A stretch of 35,848 bases of DNA from a virus, in the IMG/VR virus record IMGVR_UViG_3300025467_000038, positions 1 through 35,848 of that record, one strand, 5' to 3'. Shown one piece after another: positions 24,370-31,300 of this stretch (its first letter is position 1; every line of letters starts with the position of its first letter). A program made the position numbers and the translations under genes. The notes under the pieces are model-generated. The model did not search any database. It was not told where the DNA came from and was given only the letters and a program-made list of their open reading frames with translations.

Positions 24370-25101
24370 TTAGAACTTGAATTTGTAACCAACGTTATAA
24401 CCAGTGATTTGAGCAGCTGAGTCTGTTAATGAGGTGCGTTGTGCAAATAAGTTTGCATTGATACCGTGCCAATCAAGACCAATACCTGGTTGATAGTACT
24501 TCTTAACGTTCTTAAGAGCAGCAATTGTAGCAGCGCCTGGATCATTGAAACCAACAACTAGTGCTGGAACAATTTTAAGAGCACCAAATGTATTGATTGG
24601 TGTGTTAACACCGAATTCAAAATTGTTGCTACGATTAACTGTATCGTTAAGAGCGCGGCCTTGCCAGTTAAGATGACCACCAAACCAGCTACCACTTAAT
24701 TTAACAAATGGTAAGAAGTTGTGATTAGCTTGACCAGTAGCTTCTGCTGCATTTACGTGTCTTAATTCTGCACCGAGTGTTAAGTCAGCGAGAGGAGACG
24801 TGAATTTATAACCAGCATCAAGATAAACGCGCTTTAGACCAGATGCATCGGTTGTTGATACTGTTTTACCAGCTACAACTGATGTTGTGGTTGTGTCGCT
24901 AACTTTGTCAAATGCTGTTACAGCAAGATCAATGCCGTATACATTTGTACCAACGCCAGCTGTTGCATAGTTAGTACCGACTAATAGACCTTGTTGGATT
25001 AGCTTTGAGGTAAATCCGACATCTAAGTCACCGCTAACTGGAGCAGCTTTTACAACGATTGCGATTAATGACAATGCGAGGAATGTTAATAGTTTCTTCA
25101 T
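24370..25101 (-). CDS. Outer-membrane beta-barrel protein with signal peptide
   Basis: A 243-residue protein. Residues 1-19 are a clear signal peptide (MKKLLTFLALSLIAIVVKA, cleavage before APVSG). The mature part alternates polar and hydrophobic residues in strands about 10 long (IDLAVTAFD, RVYLDAGYKF, LTLGAELRHV, NFEFGVNTPI, IGLDWHGINANLFAQ). It ends in a beta strand with terminal Phe (GYNVGYKFKF), the classical BAM-recognised C-terminus. Length suggests about 8-12 strands. It is preceded by an exact T4 late octamer and followed by a strong terminator, so it is a dedicated late transcript. Roles could include blocking receptors (superinfection exclusion) or porin-like change of the host surface; neither is shown by sequence. 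Confidence 0.87.
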   Translation of the reverse strand: MKKLLTFLALSLIAIVVKAAPVSGDLDVGFTSKLIQQGLLVGTNYATAGVGTNVYGIDLAVTAFDKVSDTTTTSVVAGKTVSTTDASGLKRVYLDAGYKFTSPLADLTLGAELRHVNAAEATGQANHNFLPFVKLSGSWFGGHLNWQGRALNDTVNRSNNFEFGVNTPINTFGALKIVPALVVGFNDPGAATIAALKNVKKYYQPGIGLDWHGINANLFAQRTSLTDSAAQITGYNVGYKFKF

Positions 25102-26225: not shown

Positions 26226-26300
26226 TGGTACCCCTACGCGGAATCGAACCGCGATTAGCGAAATGAAAATCCGATGTCCTAACCGTTAGACGATAGGGGC
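26226..26300 (-). tRNA. tRNA-Glu (anticodon TTC), CCA encoded
   Basis: 75 nt including the encoded CCA. Acceptor stem GCCCCTA/TAGGGGT (G1-T72 wobble). The D arm contains GTCTAACGGTTAGGAC. The anticodon loop TTTTCAT gives TTC; its stem starts with a T-C mismatch. The T arm CGCGG-TTCGAAT-CCGCG is perfect. It lies 7 nt downstream of the tmRNA on the same strand, so both probably come from one precursor. Confidence 0.93.
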
Positions 26301-26307
26301 AAAAAAA

Positions 26308-26690
26308 TGGTGGACCTGCCGGGTACTGCCCCCGGGTGTTCTGTAATGTTCTTATCAGTTTCTACAAGCTTATCATTACTAATAAGATGTATACCCGTAA
26401 TGCTAGTATACAAATTGTTTGGTAGTATTCCTGCTATTCTACTACCATTGAATAGTCAGTCTCGCTGAATGACGGTTATAGTATATAGCGAGAATCTATA
26501 TTATAACCGATCGAGCTTAAGCAGCTGCGAGTGCGAAGCTTTCGCCGAATGAAAGAGATTCTTTCACGGAAGCGACTGCGTTCTTGAGGCTTTGAATGAT
26601 GCCGTTTGTTTTTGTAGTAATTTATAAAGGATTTACTAATCCTGCTTGCTTCTAATACATCTGCCACAGAGTCGAATCTGGTACAGGCCC
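26308..26690 (-). ncRNA. ssrA: Transfer-messenger RNA (tmRNA), one-piece, with 18-residue tag
   Basis: A 383-nt tmRNA that rescues stalled ribosomes and tags the nascent protein. The tRNA-like ends pair perfectly (GGGCCTG with CAGGTCC), with the G3-T70 pair and A73 that identify alanine, and CCA is encoded. The 5' side has the D-arm segment CAGATTCGAC. The T stem CCGGG/CCCGG has an atypical loop, GGCAGTA. The tag frame (26517-26573) starts after CAGTC, like TAGTC in E. coli, and reads ASVKESLSFGESFALAAA then TAA. Four pseudoknots can be drawn: PK1 26614-26642, PK2 26461-26509 (CTCGCT/AGCGAG), PK3 26421-26455 (CTATTC/GAATAG, GGTAGTA/TACTACC) and PK4 26374-26412 (CATTAC/GTAATG). The order is normal, not permuted. 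A few phages are known to carry tmRNA. Confidence 0.96.
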
Positions 26691-26734: not shown

Positions 26735-27133
26735 ATGAATAGCAACTTAAAAGTTTTAGCGGAGCAATATCAAACAATACTCGAAAAACGTGTTCAACCT
26801 GAACCAGAAACAGAAGAGTCGTTTGAACAGTTCTTAACTAAAAGAGCTGCGGGTGCTGCTAAAATTGCTCATAGTTCAAAAGAAAAGGGTGGGTTTGCTA
26901 CTTTAACAGCTATTCATTTTGCTGCTAAAGCTAAACCTTATAAAGAATCAGAGCAGTGGGCTACTAAAGAAGGTAAAGACGCACATTACAAAAAAATGGC
27001 AGAAGAAGTTTATGCTAAATTAGCAAATTTAGATAAACTATCTCAAAAAGAGTTTCAAGCTCTTATGGGTGAGCTGGAAGTTTGGGGCGAAGTATATATT
27101 CGCTCAACTAAGCCTGAAAGTTTAAAGATTTAA
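26735..27133 (+). CDS. Helical phage protein, unknown
   Basis: A 132-residue, charged, alpha-helical protein (MNSNLKVLAEQYQTILEKRV...). The middle has FLTKRAAGAAKIAHSSKEKGGFA and AIHFAAKAKPYKESEQW. The C-terminal part reads KEFQALMGELEVWGEVYIRSTKPES. No membrane segment, metal site or catalytic motif is visible. It stands alone between the divergent tmRNA and the convergent tRNA-Gly, whose CCA end lies 2 nt past its stop codon. No function assigned. Confidence 0.8.
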   Translation: MNSNLKVLAEQYQTILEKRVQPEPETEESFEQFLTKRAAGAAKIAHSSKEKGGFATLTAIHFAAKAKPYKESEQWATKEGKDAHYKKMAEEVYAKLANLDKLSQKEFQALMGELEVWGEVYIRSTKPESLKI

Positions 27134-27135
27134 AT

Positions 27136-27210
27136 TGGAGCGGAGTGACGGGCTCGAACCGTCGACATCCTCGTTGGCAACGAGATATTCTACCACTGAA
27201 TTAACCCCGC
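27136..27210 (-). tRNA. tRNA-Gly (anticodon GCC), CCA encoded
   Basis: 75 nt with CCA. Acceptor GCGGGGT/ACTCCGC (one G-T pair). D arm TTCAGTGGTAGAA. Anticodon stem TCTCG/CGAGG around TTGCCAA gives GCC. T arm GACGG-TTCGAGC-CCGTC. It begins 24 nt after the stop of the sulfotransferase-like gene 27234-28238 on the same strand and may be processed from its transcript. The gene may serve the Gly-rich collagen fibre, although GCC reads GGC/GGT only. Confidence 0.94.
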
Positions 27211-27233: not shown

Positions 27234-28238
27234 TTACTTTTTCCAGCTGTCTCTATCGTAATTAAAGCGTTCAAACCATTCCTGCATATTCTCATAAACC
27301 ATATCAGCTAATTCTTGAGTATAAAACGAACGCCAATCTTCGCTATATAAGGTATACAAATCTATAAGCTTTACTTTTTCTTTAAACCCGTCAGGCACTA
27401 TGAAAAAGTTTCTTAAAAAGGTTTTTAATTTATTGTCGGGTATTTCTTTAAGCTGTCCGTATAATTTTTTTAACTGTATCTGAGAATAACTTTTAGGGGT
27501 AGTTTTAAAAATAGCATTGTATATTTTCGGGTTATTTTCTATAAAACTAGTAAAATAATTTGTATTATAATTGTCAAATAAAGTTAAACATACAATTACA
27601 TATTTTAATAAAGTACTGTTATACTGTGTAGTACAAGGATTAGTTGTATTAAGCTTAGTTACACCGGGTACTTTGAGTATATCTTCTTTATAGTTTTCTA
27701 AACGTACAATATAATCTATTTTTTCTGGTAGTTTTTTAGGTTTGTACAAAACTACCTTACCGTCATCAACGTATTTTTGAGCTATCTTTTTATTTTTACT
27801 AATCTTCATCCAATCTTTAAATGAATCTAAGACTGGCGGATTCGATAGGTAAACTTTTGTTGCAGTAGTACCATCCTCGCCGTTTTTTACTTCATCAAAC
27901 CACAAAGGCATTTTATCTAATATGTCTAAATACGGACTGTATGGTCTGATAGCCAAGGATTGTGCTAACTTCCATTGAGAAAAAACTAAAGTATAAGGAT
28001 TACGCACATTAACTATAACTGGGTATTTGGAGTACTCTTCTGGTATTTCAAGGGCGTGGGTGTAAGGTCTAGCACCGGCAAATGTATGGCCGTTTGTCTG
28101 GACTATATTGATACCATTAAGGTGCATAGTATCAAACGTTGCTCTAGATCCAGTACGAGGCGGTAAAAGCCAAATATGATCGTTAGATAAGAAATTCATA
28201 CCGCTACTTACCCGTTGTGGTAAAAAATTAAATGTCAT
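27234..28238 (-). CDS. Sulfotransferase-fold protein 1
   Basis: A 334-residue protein. The 5'-PAPS-binding loop is WLLPPRTGSRATFDTM (R28-T29-G30-S31-R32). The 3'-phosphate motif is VIVNVRNPYTLVFSQW (R79, N80, P81, S87). These are the two cofactor signatures of the sulfotransferase superfamily, which moves sulfate from PAPS to sugars, lipids or tyrosines. The middle (~residues 100-290) is larger than in the two relatives downstream. The C-terminus, LADMVYENMQEWFERFNYD then RDSWKK, is shared with both. The start at 28238 abuts the divergent octamer of the SGNH-like gene. Acceptor unknown; a phage or host glycan is plausible. Confidence 0.8.
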   Translation of the reverse strand: MTFNFLPQRVSSGMNFLSNDHIWLLPPRTGSRATFDTMHLNGINIVQTNGHTFAGARPYTHALEIPEEYSKYPVIVNVRNPYTLVFSQWKLAQSLAIRPYSPYLDILDKMPLWFDEVKNGEDGTTATKVYLSNPPVLDSFKDWMKISKNKKIAQKYVDDGKVVLYKPKKLPEKIDYIVRLENYKEDILKVPGVTKLNTTNPCTTQYNSTLLKYVIVCLTLFDNYNTNYFTSFIENNPKIYNAIFKTTPKSYSQIQLKKLYGQLKEIPDNKLKTFLRNFFIVPDGFKEKVKLIDLYTLYSEDWRSFYTQELADMVYENMQEWFERFNYDRDSWKK

Positions 28239-28245
28239 ATAAGTA
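28238..28245 (+). promoter_or_regulatory. Late-promoter-like octamer TATAAGTA deciding a GTG start
   Basis: TATAAGTA, 7 nt before GTG 28253. It begins on the last base of the divergent gene's start codon. The usual spacing supports GTG as the true start. Confidence 0.5.
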
Positions 28246-28252
28246 ACAACGC

Positions 28253-28999
28253 GTGCAACAATTAGACCATAAAGATAAAAGTGTGTGGGCTAATGGCCTA
28301 TACAAAAATATAGCTAATACTGAAGTAGAGTGGCTTAGAATGGATTCTAAGGAAAGATTTACAGAGCATTTAAAGACTCGTAAAGATAATTTGCAAAAGT
28401 ATGGATGGTTAGATACTAAATTTACATATAAGTTTAATAAGGATGGGTTTAGAAGCATAGAGTTTATGCAAAACCCAGATATAATGTTTTTAGGTTGTAG
28501 TTACACGCTCGGTATCGGTCTACCAGTAGAATGTACCTGGCCCGATATAGTTACTAAAGCATTAAATATAAAAAGCGTTAACTTAGGAATAGGTGGTGGA
28601 GCAATAGATACTTTTTTTAGGATTAGCTTACACTGGATAAATAAATTAAAACCTAAAACTGTAGTGCTTTATGTACCGTTCAAAGAGAGATTAGAAATCA
28701 TAAGAAATAACGGGTATATATATCTGTCGTCCCATTATTTTGAACAATATAATGTTTTTCTTGAAGATTGGTTTGCAAATCGAGAAAACTCTTATTTTAA
28801 TTACTTAAAAAACGTTTTAGCTATAAAACAGGTATGCCAAGATAATAACACTAAGCTAATTGTGTTTGACGAGACTCCCGAACGTATAGATTTTGCTAGA
28901 GATTTGTCTCACCCGGGGGTAGAGACAAATAAACTTATTGCTCAAATTGCATTAAAGCATATTGAGAGTAATCAAGATTTCCAGCTATCTTTTGAATAA
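28253..28999 (+). CDS. SGNH/GDSL-like hydrolase
   Basis: A 248-residue protein starting at GTG (MQQLDHKDKSVWANG). Block I is IMFLGCSYTLGIGLP with G81-C82-S83, i.e. Cys where the family name-giving motif has Asp but with the nucleophile Ser kept. Block II is NLGIGGGAIDTFFR. The C-terminal D-x-x-H is DLSHPGVETN (~D216, H219), so the catalytic Ser-Asp-His could form. Family members deacetylate or de-esterify sugars and lipids. It is the only plus-strand gene in the sulfotransferase cassette: divergent from protein 1 and convergent with protein 2, overlapping that gene by 28 bp at the 3' ends. Removing acyl groups before sulfation is a possible joint role, inferred from position only. Confidence 0.78.
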   Translation: MQQLDHKDKSVWANGLYKNIANTEVEWLRMDSKERFTEHLKTRKDNLQKYGWLDTKFTYKFNKDGFRSIEFMQNPDIMFLGCSYTLGIGLPVECTWPDIVTKALNIKSVNLGIGGGAIDTFFRISLHWINKLKPKTVVLYVPFKERLEIIRNNGYIYLSSHYFEQYNVFLEDWFANRENSYFNYLKNVLAIKQVCQDNNTKLIVFDETPERIDFARDLSHPGVETNKLIAQIALKHIESNQDFQLSFE

Positions 29000-29682
29000 C
29001 CAAATGCAGTAAAATCTGCTTGATAAGCTTTATACACTACGTCTGCTAAGACTTGTGAAGTATATGCGGCTTTCCAGGATAGGTTATTAATATTAATATG
29101 ATGATATCTATCAGTGTAGATATTCATTCTGTAAGCCCAATTATTAACTATACCCGGTATAACTGTACTTAACCCCGTTACACTCGCACTTAAACTTTCT
29201 AAACGTACGAAATTAACATTAGCTAAATCAATACCGGCTACGGCTAGTTGATCAGTGATTTGTCCGCGTGATACTCCTATCAAAGGTGAACCACTGGTTG
29301 GTGTAAAGTAAGTCCAACAACCCTTGTCTGCAGTAGGAGAAGCTGAAAGCGGTTGAGACCATATACCTGTAGCATCTCTATTGAGAATAAAAGAATCAAA
29401 CGCAACAGTGGGTACTCCTTTAGCGGTTAAAAATTTATTAACGTGTAACCAATCTGTAAACACAATGTCGTATGGGTTTCTTATAGTACAAACGATCGTT
29501 TTGTATGTAGTGCCAGCTGGAATAGCAAAATTACGAGTAAACTCTACAGGGGCTGCAGACACGCCTGTTGTTAATACGGATTGCTCATCGTTAATTTCAC
29601 TTAAATATGAATAAAGAGATCTTGAACCTGTAAAAGAAGGCGCGAGTTGTACTGTAGATAAAGCTGGATAAAATATGGCCAT
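28972..29682 (-). CDS. Sulfotransferase-fold protein 2 (diverged)
   Basis: A 236-residue protein from ATG 29682 (MAIFYPALSTVQLAPSFTGS). An upstream TTG at 29697 would add five residues but lies within the octamer promoter. The cofactor loop is SFTGSRS (G19-S20-R21), with Ser-Phe in place of the Pro-Arg or Pro-x of its relatives. The 3'-motif is IVCTIRNPYDIVFTDW (R68-N69-P70, T76 for Ser). The C-terminus VLADVVYKAYQADFTAFGYS then KDSWKS matches the other two. The middle is Ala/Thr/Ser-rich and lacks most basic residues, so it may be a changed or inactive member. It is the last gene of the 31300-28972 run but has its own octamer. Confidence 0.75.
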   Translation of the reverse strand: MAIFYPALSTVQLAPSFTGSRSLYSYLSEINDEQSVLTTGVSAAPVEFTRNFAIPAGTTYKTIVCTIRNPYDIVFTDWLHVNKFLTAKGVPTVAFDSFILNRDATGIWSQPLSASPTADKGCWTYFTPTSGSPLIGVSRGQITDQLAVAGIDLANVNFVRLESLSASVTGLSTVIPGIVNNWAYRMNIYTDRYHHININNLSWKAAYTSQVLADVVYKAYQADFTAFGYSKDSWKS

Positions 29683-29687
29683 AACTA

Positions 29688-29695
29688 TATTTATC
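29688..29695 (-). promoter_or_regulatory. Late-promoter-like octamer GATAAATA
   Basis: GATAAATA on the minus strand, 5 nt before ATG 29682. It decides for this ATG against the upstream TTG. Confidence 0.55.
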
Positions 29696-29697
29696 AA

Positions 29698-30072
29698 TTA
29701 TTGAACGCCTTTTAAATACGGACAAGAGAAGTTTTTACATATATTTGGACGTATTTCATACACACTACAACATTTTAGCGTTGAATTATAAAATATACAA
29801 GGCTTTCTAACGTGTTTATTATCAACTCTTAGCGCAGGATAATGAGACGGATTCTGATAAAAAGATCTCTCCGGAAACAGTTTAGAACCTTCCTCATATT
29901 CTAAAAATACATCTTCTTTTTGTACATTAATACCAGAAAACTTTAACTTGAGTCTATTTAAAAATTGTTCTGAGTCGTCGATAGGACCTATTATAAAGTC
30001 TCTATCGTCAAGCTGACAGCAACCACCGTGGTTGCCTTCAAATCCTAAACATTTTTCACTACAATGGTTCAT
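29698..30072 (-). CDS. YkgJ-like zinc/iron-chelating cysteine-cluster protein
   Basis: A 124-residue protein. Clustered cysteines sit at both ends: CSEKCLGFEGNHGGCCQLDD near the N-terminus and KPCIFYNSTLKCCSVYEIRP then NICKNFSCPYLKG at the C-terminus. The C-C-x-(I/V)-Y-x-x-R-P-x-x-C-(K/R)-x-F pattern is the signature of the YkgJ/CxxCxxCC family, thought to bind zinc or an iron-sulfur cluster. Biochemical role in phages is unknown. The start overlaps the upstream sulfotransferase-like stop (ATGA), so translation is coupled, and it sits between sulfotransferase-like proteins 2 and 3. A redox or maturation partner for the cassette is a guess. Confidence 0.82.
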   Translation of the reverse strand: MNHCSEKCLGFEGNHGGCCQLDDRDFIIGPIDDSEQFLNRLKLKFSGINVQKEDVFLEYEEGSKLFPERSFYQNPSHYPALRVDNKHVRKPCIFYNSTLKCCSVYEIRPNICKNFSCPYLKGVQ

Positions 30073-30722
30073 CGCTTCCAGCTATTTTTTTCGTAGCCTA
30101 ATTTTTCAAATTGATGTTTATATGCATCGTAAACTAAATCTGCAAGTCTAGAATTATACATATAATAAGTTTTCCAATCAGCATAGTTACCAGTTCTTCT
30201 TAAATCGCCTCGAGGGTCATCTACCCCTTCGTATTTGTACTGATTGTTTAAAATATTAGAAATAAAGTCCATTTGTACAAATGGTGAGTCTATTTCAACG
30301 AAAGGTATTTTTTTAATATCTTCTTGTAAATTCTCGTATCGTATAAAATGCTTCGGTTTAAACTTTTCTATAGAGTTTTCATAATGGTCCATTATACCTT
30401 CTGGGTTCTTTAGCACAAACTGTTCAAAATCGCATAATACTTTTAACTCTCCTTTTTGTTCTTTAAAACAAGATAAATGCCAAGATGAAACCGCCCTTGA
30501 GTACGGGTTTCGTATTTGCATTATAATAGGGTAACTAGTCTTGTCAGCGGGTACGTCGTAAGAATGGGTATGCGCTACATATCTTATATTAGACTTATCG
30601 CTAAATTTTGAATCTAATTCGTAGTTATAAAAATCGTAATGTTTAAATATTTCACTAACAGCTCTAGAACCACATCGCGGACTAGCCCACCATATATAAC
30701 CTACTTTATCAGAAACGTTCAT
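30069..30722 (-). CDS. Sulfotransferase-fold protein 3
   Basis: A 217-residue protein from ATG 30722, which overlaps the methyltransferase stop as ATGA; the frame is open seven codons further upstream, but the overlap supports this start. The cofactor loop is YIWWASPRCGSRAVSEIF (R16-C17-G18-S19-R20). The 3'-motif is IIMQIRNPYSRAVSSW (R71-N72-P73, S79/S80). An AHTHSYD segment follows the loop region. The C-terminus RLADLVYDAYKHQFEKLGYE then KNSWKR is the shared ending of the trio. It is the most canonical of the three and close to single-domain size. It is coupled on both sides: methyltransferase upstream, YkgJ-like downstream. Confidence 0.82.
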   Translation of the reverse strand: MNVSDKVGYIWWASPRCGSRAVSEIFKHYDFYNYELDSKFSDKSNIRYVAHTHSYDVPADKTSYPIIMQIRNPYSRAVSSWHLSCFKEQKGELKVLCDFEQFVLKNPEGIMDHYENSIEKFKPKHFIRYENLQEDIKKIPFVEIDSPFVQMDFISNILNNQYKYEGVDDPRGDLRRTGNYADWKTYYMYNSRLADLVYDAYKHQFEKLGYEKNSWKR

Positions 30723-31300
30723 AACTTCTGATACACCCAGCAATACTCTCCTGACACAACCTGTAAACCTGGCGAATATTGAAAAAATTCGTCTACAGCT
30801 TTTTTAACGCCTGGAAATTTATGTCCGTGTTCAGGGTCAGAAGGATCAAAATAATCGTGTCCTGCAATAATACCACCTTTGCGTAGTTTCATATACCAGG
30901 CATCTAGATCAGCTTTTACATCCTCATATTCGTGACTGGCATCAATAAAAATAAAGTCTATAGATTTGTCAGGATAAGTTTTAGCAGCTTCTAAAGAAGC
31001 CATACGAATTGGATTGATAATGTGCTTTACCGGCTGCATATTCTCTAAAAACTGCATATATAGAGCATTCTGTTCATCTGGTTTTAAGTTATGCTCTACA
31101 CTACCTTGCCAGGTATCTATAACGTCAAACTTAATATTTTTACCGGAATTAGCTATTTCTACGGCTGCAAATGCAGTAGATTGTCCCATCCAAGCGCCTA
31201 CTTCAACCATATGAGAACCTTCTTGCATACAACCTATAACTGTCTTGTATAAACTAGGGAATGTAAACCAACCCTGTATATTCCAGTAATAATGATCCAT
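30719..31300 (-). CDS. SAM-dependent methyltransferase (class I)
   Basis: A 193-residue protein of the Methyltransf_24 type. Motif I is MVEVGAWMGQSTAFAAVEIA (residues ~31-50, the SAM-binding Gly loop). FDVIDTW gives the acidic residue that binds the ribose. IDFIFIDASHEYEDVKADLD and GGIIAGHDYFDP follow, typical of sugar or small-molecule O-methyltransferases with a metal site. The substrate is unknown. It is the first gene of the coupled set methyltransferase - sulfotransferase 3 - YkgJ, with an octamer 9 nt upstream. Together with the sulfotransferases it suggests glycan decoration by methylation and sulfation (inference). Confidence 0.85.
   Translation of the reverse strand: MDHYYWNIQGWFTFPSLYKTVIGCMQEGSHMVEVGAWMGQSTAFAAVEIANSGKNIKFDVIDTWQGSVEHNLKPDEQNALYMQFLENMQPVKHIINPIRMASLEAAKTYPDKSIDFIFIDASHEYEDVKADLDAWYMKLRKGGIIAGHDYFDPSDPEHGHKFPGVKKAVDEFFQYSPGLQVVSGEYCWVYQKL

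Follow-up and report, generated by a model that had tools for sequence, protein, structure and literature searches.

We analysed a 35,848-nucleotide stretch of viral DNA (the window; positions 1 to 35,848 of IMG/VR record IMGVR_UViG_3300025467_000038), in which a cassette of six genes lies at 27234-31300. The terminase, tail sheath and baseplate hub genes of the window mark the source as a contractile-tailed phage, and the window matches a section of a 97-kb IMG/VR contig (G001/L007) at 99.6-99.98% identity. The cassette sits between replication genes (5'-3' exonuclease, FolE) and a stretch of tRNA and transfer-messenger RNA (tmRNA) genes. Five of its genes are on the minus strand: a class I S-adenosylmethionine methyltransferase of the Methyltransf_24 (TylF/CmcI-like) family (MT, 30719..31300), a sulfotransferase (ST) predicted to be active (ST5, 30069..30722), a CxxCxxCC-type cysteine protein (YkgJ, 29698..30072), a sulfotransferase-fold paralogue that is a predicted pseudoenzyme (ST3, 28972..29682), and a larger sulfotransferase-fold paralogue predicted to be active (ST1, 27234..28199). 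The sixth, an optional SGNH/GDSL-type hydrolase gene (28253..28999), runs on the plus strand; it faces ST1 head-to-head and shares 28 bases with the 3' end of ST3. All six open reading frames (ORFs) were confirmed in the window. The start codons conserved across orthologues are those at ATG 30722 (ST5), 29682 (ST3) and 28199 (ST1) rather than those upstream. The first-pass annotation had described three genes joined by ATGA overlaps; these are MT, ST5 and YkgJ, which two exact overlaps couple in the window.

ST1, ST3 and ST5 had been regarded as paralogues on the basis of three shared elements, and all three elements were found: the GSR loop (PPRTGSR, SFTGSR and SPRCGSR, respectively), the RNPY...S/T-x-W motif (RNPYTLVFSQW, RNPYDIVFTDW and RNPYSRAVSSW) and the C-terminal ending LADxVY...F(G/N)Yxx(D/N)SWK, in which ST5 has L for F. 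Profile-profile comparison with hhalign gave probabilities of 99.5% for ST5-ST3, 99.8% for ST5-ST1 and 97.8% for ST3-ST1, the last over the final 37 residues only, and a single-sequence search inside the window likewise paired the three proteins. A 30-protein tree placed ST3 and ST1 each in a single group (100/100 for both), and likewise ST5 (93/88). Because each paralogue has its own clade across lineages, the triplication predates the split of these phage lineages.

The phage ST proteins are small (217-321 aa) and very diverged. ST5 passed the cut-off of PF00685 (Sulfotransfer_1; 27.7 bits against 22, E 2.2e-6), and no Pfam sulfotransferase model matched the ST1 and ST3 of the window. AlphaFold2 (AF2) models of ST5 and ST3 had mean predicted local distance difference test (pLDDT) scores of 83.6 and 85.4, and among the best VIA-align rows listed, 50 of 50 were sulfotransferases for each model. 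The Z scores were 8.2-9.6 over 166-205 residues for ST5 and at best 9.7 for ST3, whose leading rows were heparan sulfate 3-O, 2-O and 6-O enzymes; as Z under 8 can be common, the fold call rests on the uniform family and full-domain coverage of the rows and not on Z alone. Foldseek also placed sulfotransferases at nearly all leading ranks for the ST5 model (best E 0.016). For ST1, membership is suggested by its hhalign match of 99.8% to ST5. On sequence and predicted fold, ST5 is a member of the P-loop sulfotransferase superfamily, and ST1 probably is too. A match of ST3 to Pfam BT_2262-like_C (E 0.025, below the cut-off) was dropped, as were weak tail-fibre matches in PHROG, at E 0.15 for ST3 and E 0.055 for the SGNH protein.

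The active sites separate two likely enzymes from one protein that has probably lost catalysis. In ST5, H60, R78 and S86 do not vary among 16 sequences whose identity falls as low as 26%, and most of these also retain the loop Arg; R78 and S86 make up the 3'-phosphate site, and HMMER aligned the RNPY site with the RNP...S site of mouse SULT7A1. In ST1, the Arg of the 5'-phosphosulfate-binding (PSB) loop, H61 and R79 (RNPY) are invariant in five orthologues, and the Ser of the 3'-phosphate-binding (3'-PB) site is present in three of the five. Keeping the Arg of the loop for 3'-phosphoadenosine 5'-phosphosulfate (PAPS) (PRxGSR), the RNPY 3'-phosphate site and an invariant His, ST5 and ST1 are predicted to be active. 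In ST3, the PAPS-loop Arg is replaced by F, Y or L in all six orthologues, the catalytic His is absent from all six, the 3'-PB Ser is found in one, and one orthologue also lacks the RNP Arg; there is no invariant charged residue before E167. The ST3 reading frame is nevertheless open in 6/6 lineages, and the ratio of nonsynonymous to synonymous substitution rates (dN/dS) is about 0.16 in the closest pair (L023-L026), synonymous sites being near saturation in the other pairs. In the least saturated pairs of ST5, ST3 and ST1 alike, dN/dS is well under 1. Because the catalytic residues are lost yet dN/dS is so low, ST3 is best read as a pseudoenzyme that has been retained and may partner ST5 or ST1. 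The earlier view of three sulfotransferases is thus correct as to fold family and has to be given up for catalysis in ST3, leaving two likely enzymes plus a pseudoenzyme.

Collection scans for relatives were pattern-based, and six diverged lineages were compared (window/L007, L010/L011, L012/L020, L023, L024/L025 and L026). The cassette is syntenic among them: MT, ST5, YkgJ and ST3 are present in 6/6 lineages, ST1 in 5/6 and the SGNH gene in only 2/6 (window/L007 and L024/L025), so that the co-occurrence of all six genes that had been anticipated extends to the first four and nearly to ST1, and fails for the SGNH gene. Fold, paralogy and co-occurrence, the points on which the first-pass annotation could have been refuted, all speak in its favour. 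Deacylation, which it had listed as a step of the pathway, is not a core one, its gene being optional and on the opposite strand. Between most lineages the folE flank has a protein identity of 94-99% (about 80% to L020), compared with 54-81% for ST5, 28-76% for ST3 and 29-53% for ST1. The DNA of L025 and L010 is 97.4% identical over the 4.26 kb immediately downstream of the cassette, 68.5% identical over ST5-YkgJ, and without a match over ST3-SGNH-ST1. Being far more diverged than its flanks, the cassette behaves as an allele-swapping island, and these alignments suggest that the contrast is best explained by recombinational replacement rather than by ordinary drift.

The other three cassette proteins were assigned to families as follows. 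MT matched PF13578 at 74.7 bits (cut-off 26.3, E 1.2e-20), and its orthologue is at the same place in the relatives, inverted in L020 and duplicated in L026. YkgJ, of 124 aa with eight conserved Cys, passed PF03692 marginally (23.6 bits against 23, E 8.7e-5), and it gave nothing credible against solved structures. It is the best conserved cassette protein (73-77% to the window copy within the clade and 50-55% in distant phages), and by its sequence it belongs to a family of the metal- or iron-sulfur (FeS)-binding type. Outside the clade, 5 of 11 YkgJ records carry an ST, which is no more than suggestive for want of a background rate. The SGNH protein has the motifs GCS (block I) and DLSH (block V) in the window and GCS with DLEH in L025, and its profile, which includes a third SGNH-like row, matched SGNH/GDSL esterases (4.2e-5). 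NCBIfam had no match for any of the five cassette proteins scanned.

At the downstream edge of the cassette lies a tRNA-Gly(GCC) gene (27136..27210, minus strand), which relatives have between ST3 and the gene that follows. What first looked like short conserved 'repeats' at the edges of the cassette are in fact tRNA genes. The border is marked by a conserved 132-aa gene (MNSNLKVLAEQYQ..., 26735..27133, plus strand), whose homologues occupy the same position in L010, L020, L023, L025, L026 and L072. It is followed by a phage tmRNA gene, a conserved anchor by the ST locus (26308..26690, minus strand; RF00023 57.2 bits, E 1.2e-20), which ARAGORN did not pick up in the window, and by an adjoining tRNA-Glu(TTC) gene (26226..26300, minus strand). 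A tmRNA was found in seven of the eight relatives scanned (L010, L014, L017, L020, L025, L026 and L079). The two remoter clades L014/L017 and L079 likewise have an ST homologue next to a tmRNA, so the link is old. The tmRNA tag of the L014 group is ATKKSKVISYNFTSRKEVALAA. At L072 8136-8243, a match to the Rfam Atu_At1 small RNA was barely over the threshold (64.1 against 60) and lies next to 27 bases that recur identically at the 3' end of the window tmRNA; this may be a diverged tmRNA region. In another record (G008:C1:53012-53605, locus L093), the match to an ST homologue crosses one in-frame TAA. T4-type late promoters (TATAAATA) were rarer than expected by chance and thus uninformative, and sigma-70 promoter-like sites were no commoner than in shuffled sequence. 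Beyond the tRNA/tmRNA stretch is a conserved, outer-membrane-protein-like protein of 243 aa (24370-25101, minus strand) with a hydrophobic export-type N-terminus, 94-95% identity in the clade and a weak homologue in L014; it is possibly a phage-coded outer-membrane protein.

A hydropathy scan of the six cassette proteins found neither a transmembrane segment nor a signal peptide, which points to cytosolic chemistry. Such enzymes could reach virion proteins, nucleotide sugars and lipid-linked glycans of the inner leaflet. The contig of the phage also codes for a carbamoyltransferase, two GT2-like proteins, two more Methyltransf_24 proteins and a radical-SAM-like protein. The ST of the L014 group is surrounded by a GDP-sugar-type epimerase, an N-acetylglucosamine glycosyltransferase (GT) and a GT2, and at the ST locus of L072/L079 are Trp halogenases or a 2-oxoglutarate oxygenase (the two PF04820 Trp-halogenase-family genes are at L072 8288-11107, also in L078). 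With these genes near ST loci, a decorated glycan or protein would be a natural substrate, one not singled out by them. The first-pass annotation had proposed the editing of surface glycans, aimed at host lipopolysaccharide (LPS) or capsule or at the virion; glycan genes are indeed plentiful in these phages, yet they would suit host LPS, the virion and other substrates alike. Since membrane and export signals are absent from the cassette proteins, modification of the virion or of a cytosolic glycan is at least as likely as editing of host LPS. The same phage (G001) has a second modification island (L108 3091-8621, 9936-10553 and 11961-12719) with a radical-SAM-like protein, a carbamoyltransferase, a Methyltransf_24 protein, two GT2-like proteins and a possible SGNH protein. 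Collagen-like GAQGAQG and SGYSGYSG repeats occur in large proteins at L110 7033-13898 and L109 14850-17732; these probable fibres are encoded on the same contig as the modification genes of this phage, and they are rich in Tyr and Ser, which could conceivably serve as acceptors. A link to PAPS is suggested by one remote ST group, in which an APS (adenosine 5'-phosphosulfate)-kinase-like gene directly follows the ST in 7/7 records (L085-L090 and L095), with a PF01583 score of 70 bits, above the Pfam cut-off. At L088 1780-2602, and also in L085-L087, L089, L090 and L095, this gene is in turn followed by an NMN (nicotinamide mononucleotide)-adenylyltransferase-like gene.

We give about even odds that the cassette serves the phage as a sulfation module, maintained at the tRNA/tmRNA locus as an exchangeable island. 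In this module, PAPS made by the host would be the cytosolic sulfate donor for ST5 and ST1, which would use the His as general base and sulfate hydroxyls on a glycan or protein made by the phage or the host. The same target would be methylated by the coupled MT and trimmed by the optional SGNH esterase; ST3 would be a partner without catalysis or a subunit that presents the substrate, and YkgJ a metal/FeS-binding accessory. The likeliest target would be the surface of the phage itself (decoration of fibre or capsid) or a glycan precursor in the cytosol, and the aim would be to vary a surface in a contest that involves receptors of the host or other phages. Such a contest would lead to a block that is swapped by recombination while its flanks stay near-identical. 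The allele-swapping signature points to a surface contest, and phage-made sulfate esters, if virions or infected cells do bear them, would represent a novel type of surface chemistry in phages. We speculate more tentatively that two active STs, a dead partner paralogue and a metal/FeS protein build a sulfated surface, of virion or host, whose chemistry is exchanged by recombination at the tRNA/tmRNA locus in the manner of a serotype cassette. Several points weigh against the sulfation module. Its activity and substrate are predictions from sequence and fold, the His and Arg positions come from sequence alignment and not from a PAPS-bound model, and Foldseek alone gave no match under E 1e-3 for the ST5 and ST3 models. 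No APS kinase was found in the 97-kb contig of the phage or in its nearest relatives, so that PAPS must come from the host, and the APS-kinase-like gene of the remote group failed the apsK equivalog model TIGR00455 (78.5 against 138.7 bits). The records compared are all partial metagenomic contigs.

The same enzymes might instead edit the host surface: precursors of O-antigen or capsule, still lipid-linked at the inner leaflet, would be sulfated and methylated, and the new surface of the infected cell would then block superinfection or readsorption. The hypervariable locus, the phage GTs, GDP-sugar epimerase and MTs close to it, and the well-conserved export-type protein nearby agree with this, which we regard as possible, if on the less probable side. 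These glycan genes would fit virion decoration equally, and the cassette has no membrane or exported enzyme, unlike phage O-antigen seroconversion modules (GtrABC, O-acetyltransferases), which are membrane enzymes of temperate phages. It is less likely that the locus is neutral cargo (a moron) by tRNA/tmRNA genes, where unrelated genes come and go and no single six-gene pathway exists. Its tRNA borders, the optional SGNH gene, the inverted MT of L020, the duplicated MT of L026 and the other cargo of L072/L079 would all be expected of such a locus, but the order ST5-YkgJ-ST3 is kept in 6/6 lineages, ATGA overlaps couple genes in the window, all three paralogues have dN/dS well under 1 in their least saturated pairs, and the ST-tmRNA link is kept in three phage clades.

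Least probable, in our opinion, is an anti-restriction device in which ST, MT and YkgJ alter a small molecule, a nucleotide or a base of the phage DNA (hypermodification). Cytosolic enzymes, the replication genes upstream (5'-3' exonuclease, FolE) and the carbamoyltransferase and GTs of the same phage, types that also occur in DNA hypermodification, would be in keeping with it. However, no dedicated base-modifying gene was seen among the annotated parts, not all ORFs having been scanned, and the locus lies in the tRNA/tmRNA region and not in a nucleotide cluster. We also know of no described DNA sulfation by PAPS sulfotransferases, which counts against it.

The cassette was also compared with known systems. 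Of 50,697 records of isolated phages, none matched ST5, ST1, YkgJ or the L013 homologue, and a match of ST3 at E 0.9 was attributed to chance; the A2 profile found no homologue in bacterial genomes. The first-pass annotation knew of no described phage system of this makeup; phage sulfotransferases as such have already been reported, with unclear function (PMC10580990; also PMC8290583 and PMC12285232). The auxiliary sulfotransferases of OM43 phages, glacier-ice viruses and estuarine viruses are likewise sulfotransferase-family genes in phage, but those reported are single Sulfotransfer_3-type genes or bare annotations, whereas here there are three paralogues in a conserved, swapping cassette by a tmRNA. 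For these repeatedly reported genes, the locus offers a concrete system with conserved order, predicted catalytic residues and a natural pseudoenzyme control. With the PF00685/PF03567 superfamily (SULT, heparan sulfate 2-O and 3-O enzymes), the phage STs share the fold, predicted for ST5 and ST3 and probable for ST1, the PAPS loop and the RNPx...S 3'-phosphate site. A His stands at the catalytic place in ST5 and ST1, as in the superfamily, whereas ST3 lacks the catalytic residues, and in these small, diverged proteins only ST5 of the window passes a Pfam cut-off. FliB, the best-studied protein with a similar Cys motif, binds one [4Fe-4S] cluster and methylates flagellin, a surface protein (PMC8598068). 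YkgJ resembles FliB and the CxxCxxCC family PF03692 in being Cys-rich, with eight conserved Cys and a CC pair, but it has 124 aa and the spacing C-x3-C-x9-CC in place of CX4CX3CC, and its likeness to the methylase is one of Cys pattern. Seroconversion modules may share the purpose of surface-glycan change and a variable locus with the cassette, which consists of soluble sulfo- and methyltransferases instead. What is new here is the triplicated cassette with its retained dead paralogue, the coupling of ST5 to YkgJ, and the allele-swapping at a tRNA/tmRNA locus.

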